A stretch of DNA of 64,000 nucleotides from Cohaesibacter intestini. GTDB lineage: Bacteria; Pseudomonadota; Alphaproteobacteria; Rhizobiales; Cohaesibacteraceae. The position numbers were made by a program, and so were the translations under genes. Below, in pieces: positions 3,281-8,566 of the stretch. The notes below the pieces were generated by a model, which was given only the letters and a program-made list of their open reading frames with translations, was not told the DNA's origin and did no database searches. Positions within the stretch are counted from its first letter, which is position 1, and every line of letters begins with the position of its first letter. Location: NCBI RefSeq assembly GCF_003324485.1, contig NZ_QODK01000003.1:124001-188000 (forward strand), given 5' to 3'.

Positions 3281-3330
3281 TGAAGGCTGACCAAGCCGAG
3301 GGTGCGTTGAGACCCGTGCGCACAGTTGGA

Positions 3331-3690
3331 TCATCGGGGCTGACGGGCAATATCGCGCGCAAGCGGAGCATAATGAAAAACCAAAGCCGCAAACAGGGTT
3401 TCGTCAATCGCACAACCCAGACCGGCATCAATCAACCGGACGCATTGGCTGACGCGCTCCCGCAGCGCTTCGAGGGACAGATTGTTCTGTGCGCCCAGAT
3501 CATAGGCAGATCGCCAGGACAAAACCCGTGCCTTGAACCCAGCCTCGAGAATGGTGCGTACCGCCCGTTCATAGGCAATCGCATCGACGGGTGCTTTCAG
3601 GGGAGATGAAATCCGTTTTCCATGTCCTTGTGCCAGAATGGAATCGGACTCTGCAGAATGGTGACGATCGAAATCGGCTGCTTCAAACAT
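3331..3690 (-). CDS. Conserved-looking hypothetical protein (119 aa)
   Basis: I do not recognise this protein. The start is set by a strong ribosome site: the minus strand reads AAGGAAGGAAC just before the ATG at 3690. It has no signal peptide or membrane segment and is predicted to be mostly helical, with an Arg/Glu-rich centre (ALRERVSQCVRLIDAG) and three cysteines or fewer. It is convergent with the glycosidase gene, with a 50-base gap. Function is unknown. The evidence is the ribosome site and the coding-like composition. Confidence 0.5.
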   Translation of the reverse strand: MFEAADFDRHHSAESDSILAQGHGKRISSPLKAPVDAIAYERAVRTILEAGFKARVLSWRSAYDLGAQNNLSLEALRERVSQCVRLIDAGLGCAIDETLFAALVFHYAPLARDIARQPR

Positions 3691-4951
3691 TTTTGTTCCT
3701 TCCTTGCATGTCAAAGCGCCTGGTGCACCTGACACGGTTTGGAAGACTGGCGACGATATGGGAATATCCGCGTGTTTGCGCCATCTTCGCGGTTTGCAAA
3801 GATGCCGCCACATCCCGTAATAGGTGCCACCTTGCCGCGGTTGGCAGGTTGGCGAGGGCGCCAGCCCTTCTCATGATGATGGCCAAACCATACGGCGACA
3901 TTGCGGCCAGATCAAGGTGGTTTAATGAAGAAGCGGTTGTTCAGACTGTTGGCGTGGCGCAAGGGCAACAGTTAACAAAAAGAGGCCGTCGTTGCCGACG
4001 ACCTCTCGTGACGGTTAGATGTGGGGACCGTCTTGGGAGAAACCGCGCTCCTATACGGCATCGATTTGGGGGACAAATGCCGGTCGGGCAGTCTTAGTTT
4101 CTCCGTGTTTCAGTATATTTTACAGGAGATCACTTTTCCATAGTAAAAGTGGTTATACGGGGAAATTCTTGAAAAAGGCCAGATTTTTTCCTTATAAAGT
4201 TAGGAGAAAAGTGTATTAAATAGTCAATAAAAAGAATATCTAGAAAAATTCAGGAAAATAATTTTATGATATTTATAAATTGACAGTATTGTGATTTGAT
4301 AAAAACATATTTTAATTTTGTTCAGTGATGTATGGCTGTAATTATGACTTTAGTTATTGTTAAATGATTTTTTTTAAACTGAAAATTTAATTGATAGGCT
4401 GAAATTGGGCTGTGCATTGGAATGCTGAGAGTTAAGGTGGGGTTTAGTCCTGAATTTACTATTGTTTTTATTTACACGAACAATTGGGCGCGCGGAAAAA
4501 TAACCTCATATATGAGAAGGCGAAGATTTGAGTATGACGTAAGTGGATTGGAATTTAAATACCAATTTCTCCACTCAAATCTCAGGACCCATGGTCGCAT
4601 GCAGGTTTCCTGCCGAAATATTGAGACCATCCTGCATTTGGAATGGTCTGTCTTGTAAGCCCAATTTGTTGACCAGACCCGATCGCCTTGCCCAGTTGTC
4701 AAAAGGTGTTTTTAACAGTTCTGAACCCGCCGCTTCGGAAATAAGTCGATATCGCCTTGTACGCACGAAGAAAAATAGGTCTCGCGTTGAGGTCAACGAA
4801 TCATTCCGGCCCGAAAACACATATTGCACAGGTTCGATCAAGAGCCTATTGATGCTGCGGAATAGAGGCGCCAACTGACCATCAGTATGAAACGGTTGAT
4901 GTCTGGAGATGGGTCGAGTTGCGCTGGCATGGTGCCTGAACCGGCTGAAGA
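3691..4951. other. Gene-poor, partly AT-rich stretch
   Basis: I find no convincing protein gene in these 1.26 kb. A strong minus-strand terminator lies at 3973-4008. From about 4110 to 4480 the composition turns sharply AT-rich compared with the rest of the window. A perfect 12-bp palindrome CTCATATATGAG occupies 4505-4516. An imperfect inverted repeat with GATTTGAGT/ACTCAAATC arms spans 4525-4581. Both strands between 4540 and 4950 carry medium-length open frames without recognisable domains. The stretch looks like decayed or transferred DNA next to a pseudogene. Confidence 0.5.
3973..4008 (-). terminator. Rho-independent terminator, minus strand
   Basis: On the minus strand the stem AGAGGTCGTCG pairs with CGACGGCCTCT around a GCAA loop and is followed by a TTTTTG tract. 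No recognised gene ends here, so it may end a small RNA transcript. Confidence 0.7.
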
Positions 4952-5754: not shown

Positions 5755-6315
5755 ATGCAGCAGGAAGACGACAACGATCTCGGCATGGGCCCCCACACGG
5801 CTACCAGCGAAGAGTTGGTCGGGCGTCCTCTGGTGAGAAAGCAACGTACCGGCAAACCGCTCCACGCATCCATCACCGAGCAGCAGGTCTCGGATCTGGT
5901 CGACACATTTTACGGCAAGGTCCGCCAGCATCCCCGGCTGGCCATGTTGTTTGCCGGTGGCCTGAGCATGGAGTGGCCTGAGCATCTGGACCGGATGAAG
6001 GCATTCTGGCGCTCTATGTTGATGCAGACGCGGGAATATGGCGGCAAGCCTGTTCCTGCCCATCTCAAGCTCGAGGGGCTCGATCCGGAAGACTTCGCCG
6101 ACTGGTTGACCCTGTTCCGCCAAACCGCGCGTGATCTGTGTCCCGAGGCGGCGGCGGATCTCTATATCAGCCGGGCGGAGACCATCGCCAAGACCTTGCA
6201 AATGGCAGTGTTTATGCAAGGTCGGATCGCGCCACCCGATGCCTTTGATCACGGTGTCATGTCGAAGGACTTCCTCGCTTTCGTCCGGCGCAAGGATCAA
6301 CAGGACGAGTCCTGA
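5755..6315 (+). CDS. Group III truncated haemoglobin
   Basis: This is a cytoplasmic heme globin of the trHbIII (Ctb-like) class, linked in other bacteria to NO and oxygen handling. Alignment from memory with Campylobacter Ctb places Tyr B10 at residue 53 (TFYGKV), distal His E7 at 78 (EWPEHLDRMKAFW), proximal His F8 at 103 (PVPAHLKL) and Trp G8 at 117 (FADWLTLF). There is an extra N-terminal tail of about 40 residues. The start at 5755 follows a GGAAAGAAAG ribosome site. The 3' end overlaps the convergent Cas6-like gene by 19 bases. The neighbouring NsrR-like regulator supports a nitric oxide context. Confidence 0.9.
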   Translation: MQQEDDNDLGMGPHTATSEELVGRPLVRKQRTGKPLHASITEQQVSDLVDTFYGKVRQHPRLAMLFAGGLSMEWPEHLDRMKAFWRSMLMQTREYGGKPVPAHLKLEGLDPEDFADWLTLFRQTARDLCPEAAADLYISRAETIAKTLQMAVFMQGRIAPPDAFDHGVMSKDFLAFVRRKDQQDES

Positions 6316-7337
6316 TCGGCAGTCAGGAACAGCTCATAACGCCCCAGTCCAAAGGCTAGATCCTGGCCGCAATGAAGCTGTGAGCCAATCTGCAGCAGCC
6401 GCAACAGAGCCGGATCCGGCGCCGGTCCCAACTGCAACTGCAACAGCCCTGTATGTCCCCGCATGGGAATACGGGCCGTACCGCTCTGGCTGATAGCCCG
6501 GTTCCATTCGCTTACATCAAGTGCGTCCATCGTCATCTGAACCGATGCAACGGCATCATCCAGCATCTGACGGTCCACTGCCAGCGAAAGGCCATGCCAG
6601 CGTGCAATATCCTCTGCCCGCGAAAGCAGGCTGCTCAGGAACTGCGACCCGACGGTCGCCCGATCAGAAGGGCTATCCATCAACTCTTCTGTCGATGCTG
6701 CCCCATGGAAGGGCGTGGTGAAGTGCACCAGTGCCCTGTTGGCCTTCGGGACCGGGTCTTGCAAGGGAGACCAGAGACGATCCACCGAACGGATCAGCAC
6801 CCCTTGGCATGCCGATTTCACCCCCGCCAGATTGATGCCCCGCTCCAGTGCCCGATGGGCTGCTTCCCCCAAACTGTTGCACCAAAGCTGCCCCAGCCCG
6901 AACAATCGCAAGGTGACGCGCATGCTGTTCGCGCCAGTGCTGTCTGTCCGCACTAGCCAAGGGCAGGCCAGTCCGGCCATCTGCTTGTTGCTTTGACCAT
7001 TGAAAAAGACATGCAGGCCGCAGGCCGGGCCCCAGGGGCAGGGCAGTCCCGCCAGTGCCTCACGCGAGGCTGTCGACATCAGTTCCGACCCGATCACCTG
7101 ACGCACGGCTGCGGGAAAGGCGGGATGTTGAGCCAGCTGTCCGTCTCCTTCGCATTCAAAGGCCAGGTCCTGCATGCTGATTGCAGCCGCAAGGCCCTCC
7201 AGATCACACTGACCTTGCGGATGGGCCAGCAAATGCGTCAGTTCGACACCTGATGGTGCAATTGCAGGAGGCGTTAAATGGGTGACAGGGCCTTCCTTAT
7301 GGCTTTGGTGATGGGCATGGGGTGCATCGAATGGCAT
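6297..7337 (-). CDS. Orphan Cas6-like RAMP protein (CRISPR pre-crRNA endoribonuclease family)
   Basis: The C-terminus has the signature of Cas6 proteins of the PF10040 type: LLRLLQIGSQLHCGQDL followed by the glycine-rich loop FGLGRYEL. The N-terminal half carries a second RAMP-like region, with CPWGPACGLHVFFNG and VTLRLFGLGQLW. At 346 residues it is longer than most Cas6 enzymes. The start at 7337 is fixed by an excellent ribosome site, AAAGGAGA. No CRISPR repeats or other cas genes occur in this window. It sits in a minus-strand series with a CII-like and an NsrR-like regulator and converges on the trHbIII gene. RNA cleavage is therefore an inference from family only, and the real job may be unrelated to CRISPR. 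Confidence 0.75.
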   Translation of the reverse strand: MPFDAPHAHHQSHKEGPVTHLTPPAIAPSGVELTHLLAHPQGQCDLEGLAAAISMQDLAFECEGDGQLAQHPAFPAAVRQVIGSELMSTASREALAGLPCPWGPACGLHVFFNGQSNKQMAGLACPWLVRTDSTGANSMRVTLRLFGLGQLWCNSLGEAAHRALERGINLAGVKSACQGVLIRSVDRLWSPLQDPVPKANRALVHFTTPFHGAASTEELMDSPSDRATVGSQFLSSLLSRAEDIARWHGLSLAVDRQMLDDAVASVQMTMDALDVSEWNRAISQSGTARIPMRGHTGLLQLQLGPAPDPALLRLLQIGSQLHCGQDLAFGLGRYELFLTADQDSSC

Positions 7338-7357
7338 TTCGCATCTCCTTTGCGCAG

Positions 7358-7381
7358 GCGCACATCGGTTCACCGGTGCGC
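7358..7381 (-). promoter_or_regulatory. Stem-loop in the leader of the Cas6-like gene
   Basis: The minus-strand transcript would fold GCGCAC-CGG-UGAA-CCG-AU-GUGCGC, a nine-pair stem with a two-base bulge and a UGAA tetraloop. It ends six bases upstream of the ribosome site. It could block translation or be bound by the Cas6-like protein. The latter is speculation. Confidence 0.4.
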
Positions 7382-7485
7382 GGCGTCTGATGCACCAGAC
7401 ATGGCAAGGAAAGGGGTCTGCCGTCGCTAAAAAAACGCTACGGGTTTTTAAGCTGGCGTGAACAATCATCTGGAGGGGAGGGCAA

Positions 7486-7950
7486 CTATCGCCCGGCAAT
7501 GAAAGTGCGCAAGGAGATCAGGCTGCGCTCTGCATCCTCGATTTCCTTGACGATGGAAGCCGTATCGCGATGGTCGATCCGGTGATCTCTAAGCGCAACA
7601 TCAATTTCGCGCAACACATCGGATGCCTCCAGAACCACCCGATGAGCGGCCTGGTAAAGGGTGTCCTCGGGGTCGCCTTCCGTTTCTCCAATCCGCTCGG
7701 CGGCGACATAGGCCGTGCCGCGCAGCAAATAGCTGACGATGGAAGGGTCGGGAAAGACGGCAATCAGACGACGGATTTCGTCCGCAGCAAAAGGGGTGGA
7801 CCCATTCAGTCGCTGATAGAAGGCCTGATAGCTCAGTCCCATGCGCTTGGCGATGGTTTTGATATCATACCTCTCGCTGCGCGAGATGGCTTGACGCACC
7901 AGAAAGGAAAACTGCGCCCCGCGATCCTTGACATGCACATCATCCAGCAT
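7486..7950 (-). CDS. Phage CII-like helix-turn-helix regulator
   Basis: This 154-residue protein has an N-terminal helix-turn-helix (IKTIAKRMGLSYQAFYQRLN, about residues 30-49) resembling the phage regulatory CII (CP76, PF06892) family. A helical C-terminal half rich in acidic residues follows. A strong ribosome site (GGGGAGGGG) precedes the ATG at 7950. It is the middle gene of three on the minus strand, between the Rrf2 regulator and the Cas6-like gene, with gaps of 91 and 148 bases. A weak AT-stem hairpin with a T run (7430-7449) lies between it and the Cas6-like gene, so the latter may have its own promoter. The DNA target is unknown. Confidence 0.6.
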   Translation of the reverse strand: MLDDVHVKDRGAQFSFLVRQAISRSERYDIKTIAKRMGLSYQAFYQRLNGSTPFAADEIRRLIAVFPDPSIVSYLLRGTAYVAAERIGETEGDPEDTLYQAAHRVVLEASDVLREIDVALRDHRIDHRDTASIVKEIEDAERSLISLRTFIAGR

Positions 7951-8041
7951 TCGCCCCTCCCCAAAAAGACGAGTGCCAGAATAGACAGTGCAACTTTTAA
8001 TATCAAGTCGGGTGTAGGGCTTCTAACACTTTCAGCTCGGA

Positions 8042-8566
8042 TCAGTCCGCAGCGAGAGAAACAGGGGCCGATTGCGAAAGTTCATCGGCTTTTCCCGGCG
8101 TGCCGCGACCGGTTTCACAGCCACACATCACCAGATTGGGTGTGTTTTTGGAGCGTTCAAGGATGTCCGCTAGGCTGTTTTCATTGAGGCTGGCAACAAA
8201 CTGCTTGACCGCCTTGGACATAAGACGGCTCATTTCGCAGCCGCCAAACATCGGACAGTCTGGTTGGGGGGCATCCTCACAACGAGGGCAAAGGCATTCG
8301 ACAAAGCCGAAATCCGCCTCCATCACCTTGGCCACATCGCCCATACGGATTTCGGCAGGCTCCTTGCCCAGCTCCAATCCGCCACCGCGCCCGCGCATGG
8401 TTTTCAGAAAACCATTGTTCGACAGCTTCGCGATGATTTTCATGCAATGGGTGCGCGACAGATGCAAAGCGCTCGCAACGCTCTCAACCGTCAGATTGCG
8501 ATCATCATTCATCGCCACCAACATCAGGATGCGGTAGGCATAATCAGTGCCTTTGGCCAGTCTCAT
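8042..8566 (-). CDS. Rrf2-family regulator, NsrR-like
   Basis: The protein is a winged-helix Rrf2 regulator close to NsrR, the Fe-S nitric oxide sensor. The N-terminus MRLAKGTDYAYRILMLVA and the recognition-helix region HLSRTHCMKIIAKLSNNGF followed by RGRGGGLEL are typical. The cluster-ligand region is cysteine-rich (VECLCPRCEDAPQPDCPMF, then GGC), with five Cys where NsrR has three, and two more lie near the C-terminus (VMCGCETG). The start at 8566 follows GAGGAAACAACG. With a trHbIII gene nearby, an NO-responsive switch is likely. Which metal cluster it binds cannot be told from sequence. Confidence 0.75.
   Translation of the reverse strand: MRLAKGTDYAYRILMLVAMNDDRNLTVESVASALHLSRTHCMKIIAKLSNNGFLKTMRGRGGGLELGKEPAEIRMGDVAKVMEADFGFVECLCPRCEDAPQPDCPMFGGCEMSRLMSKAVKQFVASLNENSLADILERSKNTPNLVMCGCETGRGTPGKADELSQSAPVSLAAD

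Follow-up and report, generated by a model that had tools for sequence, protein, structure and literature searches.

Genes at the locus and identity of the Cas6-like protein

We examined a 64,000-nucleotide stretch of the Cohaesibacter intestini genome (assembly GCF_003324485.1, contig NZ_QODK01000003.1, positions 124,001 to 188,000; hereafter the window) that carries a gene for a Cas6-like protein. Cas6 is regarded as the maturation enzyme of CRISPR (clustered regularly interspaced short palindromic repeats) systems. The gene, here called the solo gene, lies with genes for a CII-like regulator, an Rrf2-family regulator and a truncated haemoglobin (Table 1). An earlier note on this DNA had suggested that the protein was recruited to process or bind a host RNA, possibly under nitric oxide control.

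Table 1. Features of the solo cas6 locus, in window coordinates.
Feature	Position	Strand	Remarks
Group III truncated haemoglobin	5755..6315	plus	convergent to cas6; probably an older resident of the locus; match to 2ig3, E 1.2e-14
Solo Cas6-like gene	6297..7337	minus	346 residues; ATG start with good ribosome-binding site
C-terminal stretch with glycine-rich loop	6300..6390	minus	G318, G324, G330, G332; the last three also invariant in aligned relatives
Arg79 codon	7101..7103	minus	invariant in 16 of 16 rows of the alignment of solo proteins and relatives; candidate catalytic residue by position
Conserved AT-rich dyad	7419..7454	minus	consensus TTAAAA, 11 bases, GTTTTAATCGA (divergent in the window); 82-117 bases before the cas6 start; candidate operator
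CII-like (Phage_CP76) helix-turn-helix regulator	7486..7950	minus	154 residues; distribution in the genus as for cas6 (14 of 18 genomes)
Rrf2-family regulator	8042..8566	minus	probably an older resident of the locus

The best start of the solo gene is the ATG at 7337, which is preceded by AAAGGAGATGCGAAATG, a clear ribosome-binding site; the 400-residue version of the open reading frame (ORF) chosen in the earlier note begins at an upstream TTG at 7499. The protein is a Cas6 homologue with the Cas6 fold. It matches the Cas6 model PDLC01477 of the PADLOC library (E 3.7e-17) and three further Cas6 models, and all four other intact solo proteins tested (of 12 others) also have a PADLOC Cas6 match. 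A whole-length profile match (probability 100, E 1.1e-40) links the solo proteins to eight Cas6 relatives, most of them CRISPR-linked. The C-terminal motifs IGSQLHCGQDL and GLGRYEL, which the earlier note had read as those of Cas6, are present; in alignments they correspond to the glycine-rich C-terminal part of CRISPR-associated Cas6. Comparison with the PF10040 model, which that note had proposed, did produce a match, but the scores (20.8 and 21.2 bits) fall short of the curated cut-off of 25. All 13 intact solo copies match PF10040 at E <= 1 (best 4.1e-5), and the window's protein has no NCBIfam family match. Because it lies below the PF10040 cut-off and lacks the defining CRISPR linkage, we do not file it as a CRISPR Cas6.

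An AlphaFold2 model built from 13 orthologs had a mean pLDDT (predicted local distance difference test score) of 72.8, and its best match to a solved structure had Z 17.9. With relatives added (alignment A2, 16 rows, including 8 of the 13 intact solo proteins), the mean pLDDT was 85.3. This second model has two tandem RRM-like domains, as in solved Cas6, and matches S. thermophilus Cas6 (6fjw) with Z 18.6 and a root-mean-square deviation of 3.3 over 229 aligned residues spanning 55-338. Further matches include 4c9d (Z 16.2) and the MMB-1 fusion of Cas6, reverse transcriptase (RT) and Cas1 (6dd5, Z 16.0), and the top matches are all Cas6. The models thus have the structural similarity to Cas6 on which the earlier proposal depended. 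A common fold does not by itself establish function.

Conservation in Cohaesibacter and apparent independence from CRISPR

A protein search of 150 genomes (that of C. intestini included) matched 17, and the solo gene is carried by 14 of the 18 Cohaesibacter genomes. In this search the 13 other solo copies are 49-72% identical to the window's protein; a separate comparison of intact copies gave 44-72%. Weaker matches in the same search are CRISPR-type copies, found within the genus in G006, G008 and G012 and in other families in G047 and G078. A survey of neighbourhoods, as the earlier note had advised, places all 14 solo genes in one syntenic locus, flanked by CII-like and Rrf2 genes at one end and by YdjC-like, NagZ and HisG genes at the other (the labels NagZ, HisG, HisZ-like, SlyX, MCP and GroEL are presumed from sequence). 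Within the genus the CII-like gene has the same distribution (14 genomes); among the 150 it was found in only one other genome, a distant one. Both genes are absent from G005 (64% complete; about 4 kb around HisG read), G008 (8 kb of the locus read), G010 and G017.

Thirteen of the 14 solo copies are intact. In nine close Cas6 pairs the ratio of nonsynonymous to synonymous substitution rates (dN/dS, for pairs with dS below 1.6) is 0.07-0.18, and for CII it is 0.007-0.22. By this measure, solo cas6 is under purifying selection in the pairs compared. The G006 copy (L033), which is not intact, was left out of profile A1, alignment A2, the Cas6 tree and the charge comparison. L039/L040 and L131, which are fragments at contig ends, were excluded from the tree, from A2 and from the comparison set of eight relatives (A3).

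In the C. intestini genome we found no Cas1, Cas2 or RAMP match, and the solo gene is the sole Cas6 match. A Cas3_HD match (24.1 bits, cut-off 23.1) was rejected as a Cas3 candidate; from its sequence motif we take it to be an HD-GYP-like protein. When the window was scanned for repeats (exact 16-mers or 23-mers, at least three copies), no array was found, in agreement with the earlier note. The genome-wide search for repeats suggested there was carried through 1.844 Mb (38.5% of the genome, window included) and within that scope found no array (no 23-mer three times in register). One 16-mer occurs three times within 121 bases of contig C1 of this genome. The same kind of scan did detect arrays in CRISPR loci of relatives, and none turned up in the remaining 13 carrier loci (13.5 kb each). 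Within the loci and the part of the genome scanned, solo Cas6 has no linkage to a CRISPR array or other cas genes. A Cas1 match was obtained in 8 of the 18 genus genomes, 5 of them carriers. The 9 carriers without one (of 14), together with synteny, purifying selection and a separate clade, bear out the idea of a Cas6-fold protein kept outside CRISPR.

CRISPR loci do occur in the genus. G004 has type I-C-like genes with long arrays (L135) and a second array-bearing Cas1 locus (L081/L083), and G011 has a Cas9-sized protein with a 35-repeat array (L136); the type I-C and Cas9 names are our presumption.

In a Cas6 tree, a branch with support 100/100 separates the solo proteins from the rest; the remaining branches are long and give no firm order. 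The nearest relatives sit by CRISPR arrays, mostly of type III, and arrays were found in the relatives' loci L035, L036, L037, L038, L130, L131, L132 and L134. Large Cas1 and RAMP genes were confirmed by family search in G006, G008 and G012 and by annotation in Azospirillum; in the other relatives' loci they were assigned by sequence clustering or reading of sequence. We presume that the Cas1 proteins of these loci include a reverse transcriptase part.

Profile A1 was searched in 397 genomes of the order, 385 of the class and 398 of the phylum. It matched 19, 6 and 11 of them, respectively; all matches outside the genus are weaker, and none of these genomes holds a further member of the solo clade. 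Matches in G047, G078, G235, G557, G654 (contig C2) and G760 adjoin arrays. Other matches are those in G295 and G575 and ten in the phylum set; for two of these ten, L178 and L181, the context read comprised ORFs within 1.5 kb. The Cas6 gene in G760 (L134, contig C58, 10242-11478) is accompanied only by an array of three repeats: we recognised no further cas gene within 19.5 kb, and the genes around it presumably have housekeeping roles. A Cas6-like gene in G507 (L133, contig C234, 5340-6299) lies at the end of a 6.4-kb contig in which no array was seen, next to ORFs that we take to be RebB-like and sigma-factor-like.

A scan of the genome contig collection with the window protein found no relatives, and one with profile A1 found three Cohaesibacter loci. 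Relatives of the Cas6-like protein were found neither in IMG/VR (peptide-pattern scan) nor in PHROGs, and no relative of the CII-like protein was found in phage records. Plasmid records gave two Cas6 matches, one from Azospirillum in an annotated CRISPR locus and the other from Tistrella. Outside the genus, CII-like relatives occur in G101, where no Cas6-like ORF was recognised in 3.2 kb, and in two Rhizobium plasmid records; 10.4 kb of one of these were read and gave no significant match to Cas6.

The solo proteins share the fold, the glycine-rich loop, Arg79, W247 and a length of ~300-340 residues with alphaproteobacterial type III-like Cas6 (L035, L036, L037, L038, L130, L132 and Azospirillum lipoferum AZOLI_RS18725). 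The latter lie beside arrays and, where checked, Cas1, Cas2 and RAMP genes, and have net charges of -5.4 to +9.9, whereas the solo clade has no array nearby, has invariant residues of its own and is acidic. The Cas6 domain of the Cas6-RT-Cas1 fusions (6dd5, 7kft, 7kfu) has the same fold (Z 15-16); unlike these, the solo protein is unfused, and RT and Cas1 are not nearby. Sulfolobus Cas6 (Sso1437) resembles the solo protein in its Cas6 fold, in the lack of a canonical histidine and in a basic residue close to where the first RAMP helix begins (PMC3652601), but it works with CRISPR, and identity is 7-13% in structural alignments with Sulfolobus-type entries (4ill, 4ilm, 4ilr). No report of a conserved CRISPR-free cas6 gene, or of Cas6 with Cohaesibacter, was found in the literature searched, which included few subscription papers.

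Neighbouring genes, upstream dyad and history of the locus

The CII-like protein passes the PF06892 cut-off (53.7 bits, cut-off 26) and matches phrog_101 (E 1.9e-13). It thus scores as a member of these phage regulators, yet its gene is chromosomal, and no prophage genes were recognised among the neighbours. The Rrf2 protein passes the Rrf2 superfamily cut-off and lies below the subfamily cut-offs (RirA, 103.3 bits vs 193; NsrR, 82.2 vs 182). The earlier note had named a group III globin, a CII-like and an NsrR-like neighbour: the first two identities and the Rrf2 family stand, but identity as NsrR is not established because both subfamily models score far under their cut-offs. The globin gene falls beyond the interval that the note had described.

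Rrf2 and globin genes are direct neighbours in two genomes that lack both CII and Cas6 at this place. In G017 (L157) the Rrf2 ORF ends at 3301 and the facing globin ORF at 3463, and in G010 (L158) the ends are at 7222 and 7224, with one base between them. G008 has the globin and no Rrf2 match in the 8 kb read. The cas6 and CII-like pair looks like a two-gene insertion, and given the arrangement in G010 and G017 this cassette probably entered an existing locus. In a tree of HisG and NagZ the carriers form one side of a branch with weak support (54/97), and a single entry is likely. The globin gene adjoins cas6 in 5 of the 14 loci (window included). The remaining nine, which lack a globin at this place (the absence applies to this locus only), make up exactly one clade (97/100). 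This fits one globin loss here, with CII and cas6 staying.

A nitric oxide or haem function was rejected as the main idea, because the empty sites in G010 and G017 and the missing globin suggest that Rrf2 and globin are older residents. The nitric oxide control proposed earlier is unsupported on the same grounds. The partner that co-occurs with cas6 is the CII-like gene, not the globin.

The gap between the CII-like gene and cas6 contains an AT-rich dyad in 14 of 14 loci. The window's copy is divergent (three mismatches to the consensus) and was found only by a matrix scan, with a matrix built with that copy. A pattern search across the 18 genus genomes gave 22 matches, 13 before cas6 and 9 elsewhere, against 18 for the reversed-pattern control; the dyad exceeds chance only at cas6. 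Three of the 9 matches elsewhere are one identical sequence (G001, G004, G007). Since single-sequence dyad scans of the gap were mostly no better than shuffles, it is cross-species conservation that identifies the dyad. A TATA-like stretch lies downstream of it in many rows. The possibility that the dyad is an RNA hairpin target in the cas6 leader was rejected: RNAalifold, run on 14 sequences, predicted zero consensus pairs, and we therefore read the dyad as a DNA site. Some loci also have a dyad before the CII gene; only those of L025 and L034 beat all 60 shuffles, and we do not rely on them.

A TTGACGCAGCTCAA-like palindrome before the Rrf2 gene (upstream of 8566, minus strand) is strongly conserved in 14 loci. 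It resembles what we take to be an FNR/NnrR box, and none was noticed before cas6. Elsewhere in the window, a SAM-I/IV (S-adenosylmethionine) riboswitch (3780-3884, minus strand; 55.8 bits, cut-off 41.1) heads a small ORF (3331-3813, minus strand) without a Pfam match. The ORF is conserved in position across the other 13 carrier loci as well as in G010, G017 and G008, and possibly encodes a riboswitch-controlled protein.

Residues, charge and possible functions

Eleven alignment columns are invariant in the 16 solo and related proteins (R79, L86, A90, P126, G147, P209, R240, W247, G324, G330 and G332). Residues that are invariant among the solo rows and variable among relatives include E61-C62-E63 and H161. 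The catalytic histidine of the first RAMP helix region is missing in some true Cas6 proteins. Histidine-free Sulfolobus Cas6 (Sso1437) depends most on K28 (PMC3652601), and in the Thiomicrospira Cas6-RT-Cas1 protein R37 is a named active-site residue whose change cuts processing from 97% to 12% (PMC8102632). R37 and K28 both map near model residues 79-81 by ungapped offsets of structural-alignment ranges (K28 is numbered as in Sso1437; the range is that of the related entry 4ill). Arg79 is therefore a candidate catalytic residue. Sequence searches of the PDB for an Arg79 counterpart aligned only the C-terminal part or found no Cas6.

Our preferred reading, which we hold tentatively and put just short of probable, is that the solo protein is a domesticated, CRISPR-free member of the Cas6 family, paired with the CII-like regulator and most likely acting on some RNA. 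The fold, the relatives, synteny, selection and the lack of an array at the locus are the observed basis. On this view, the ancestor of most Cohaesibacter species would have acquired a Cas6 of the type III CRISPR kind along with a CII-like regulator. The two-gene cassette would have landed, presumably once, between the Rrf2 and globin genes, and cas6 would then have been retained there without CRISPR. The CII-like protein most likely controls cas6 via the upstream dyad, a guess from adjacency and co-occurrence. The glycine-rich loop and Arg79 most likely hold, and perhaps slowly cut, one specific RNA of the cell or of an invader.

Several results weigh against this reading. The first helix of the solo protein has no canonical histidine (in the window protein, residues 72-108 include none at all); H71, immediately before this helix, is leucine in L029 and L033, and H109 is glutamine in 9 of 13 rows. 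The 13 intact solo proteins are strongly acidic, with a mean net charge of -10.6 (range -12.7 to -7.4), compared with +3.9 (range -5.4 to +14.1) for the eight relatives, a set that includes L133 (contig-end context) and L134 (short array only). A rank test of this difference, which ignores relatedness, gives p 1e-5. Genus composition alone is no explanation, because CRISPR Cas6 proteins of the same genus have charges of -0.8 (L035) and +5.4 (L038). The solo rows also hold fewer basic residues than those of the relatives compared and, with the acidity, this means that RNA binding may be lost. Conserved Arg79 and the glycine-rich loop speak for a retained core, and the acidity against ordinary Cas6-type RNA binding. 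Furthermore, the upstream element has no conserved RNA fold among the 14 sequences and an RNA target was not found, the array scan covers only 38.5% of the genome, the G006 solo copy contains an in-frame TAG, and single entry is not proved because the branch uniting the carriers is weakly supported. The G006 genome contains, in addition, a RAMP-bearing CRISPR locus with a Cas6 gene of its own.

The acidity would suit a protein that has abandoned RNA work and uses the Cas6 fold as a scaffold for a protein partner, for example as a co-regulator or anti-regulator of the CII-like protein. We consider this unlikely, while giving it real weight. It is in keeping with an acidic charge in 13 of 13 intact copies (compared with L035 and L038), a distribution in the genus identical to that of the CII-like gene, and the invariant residues specific to the solo clade. 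However, the core expected to handle RNA (Arg79, Arg240 and the glycine-rich loop) is still invariant, and the charge difference may be a single evolutionary event because one clade is compared with its relatives. An innate defence cassette, in which the CII-like protein senses or answers phage and the Cas6-like protein attacks phage RNA or the cell's own, is improbable, though a rival to be taken seriously. Typical defence genes come and go, whereas this pair occupies one chromosomal place in 14 species, and the IMG/VR, PHROGs and phage-record searches found no relative of the respective proteins. Such a cassette would nevertheless accord with a phage-type regulator and with Cas6 relatives that stem from CRISPR loci.

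Very unlikely, in our judgement, is processing of precursor CRISPR RNA in trans, for arrays that come and go in the genus. Kinship to type III Cas6, the Cas1 matches in 8 of 18 genus genomes (5 carriers) and the presence in G004 of another, type I-like locus (matches to Cas1 and Cas3 at about 0.33 Mb) favour it, but 9 of 14 carriers have no Cas1 match. In each genome with RAMP matches (G006, G008 and G012) a separate Cas6 gene lies close to an array (the G008 copy is split across contig ends), and the only genome with a broken solo copy, G006, is one that has a RAMP locus. G004 and G011 carry the type I-C-like genes and the Cas9-sized gene, respectively, and type I-C and Cas9 systems need no Cas6. 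Least credible is a decaying, functionless CRISPR remnant: the in-frame TAG in G006 is what decay would produce, but 13 of 14 copies are intact, the upstream dyad is conserved, and dN/dS of 0.07-0.18 in nine pairs largely refutes it.

Cas proteins affect gene expression in other bacteria, according to one source (PMC8616872). For domestication of Cas6 in Cohaesibacter, a permanent takeover by the host chromosome is quite conceivable, although we stop short of calling it probable. The protein would then bind non-CRISPR RNA or act on it as a ribonuclease, under the control of a regulator and of a promoter element of its own; its surface would have been altered to an acidic one, and selection would have kept it across the genus. 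If this is true, the vertically kept, selected and CRISPR-free branch with its fixed partner gene would mean that ordinary cell functions can co-opt the Cas6 fold, and this pair of genes would offer a small system open to test in marine bacteria of which named isolates exist.

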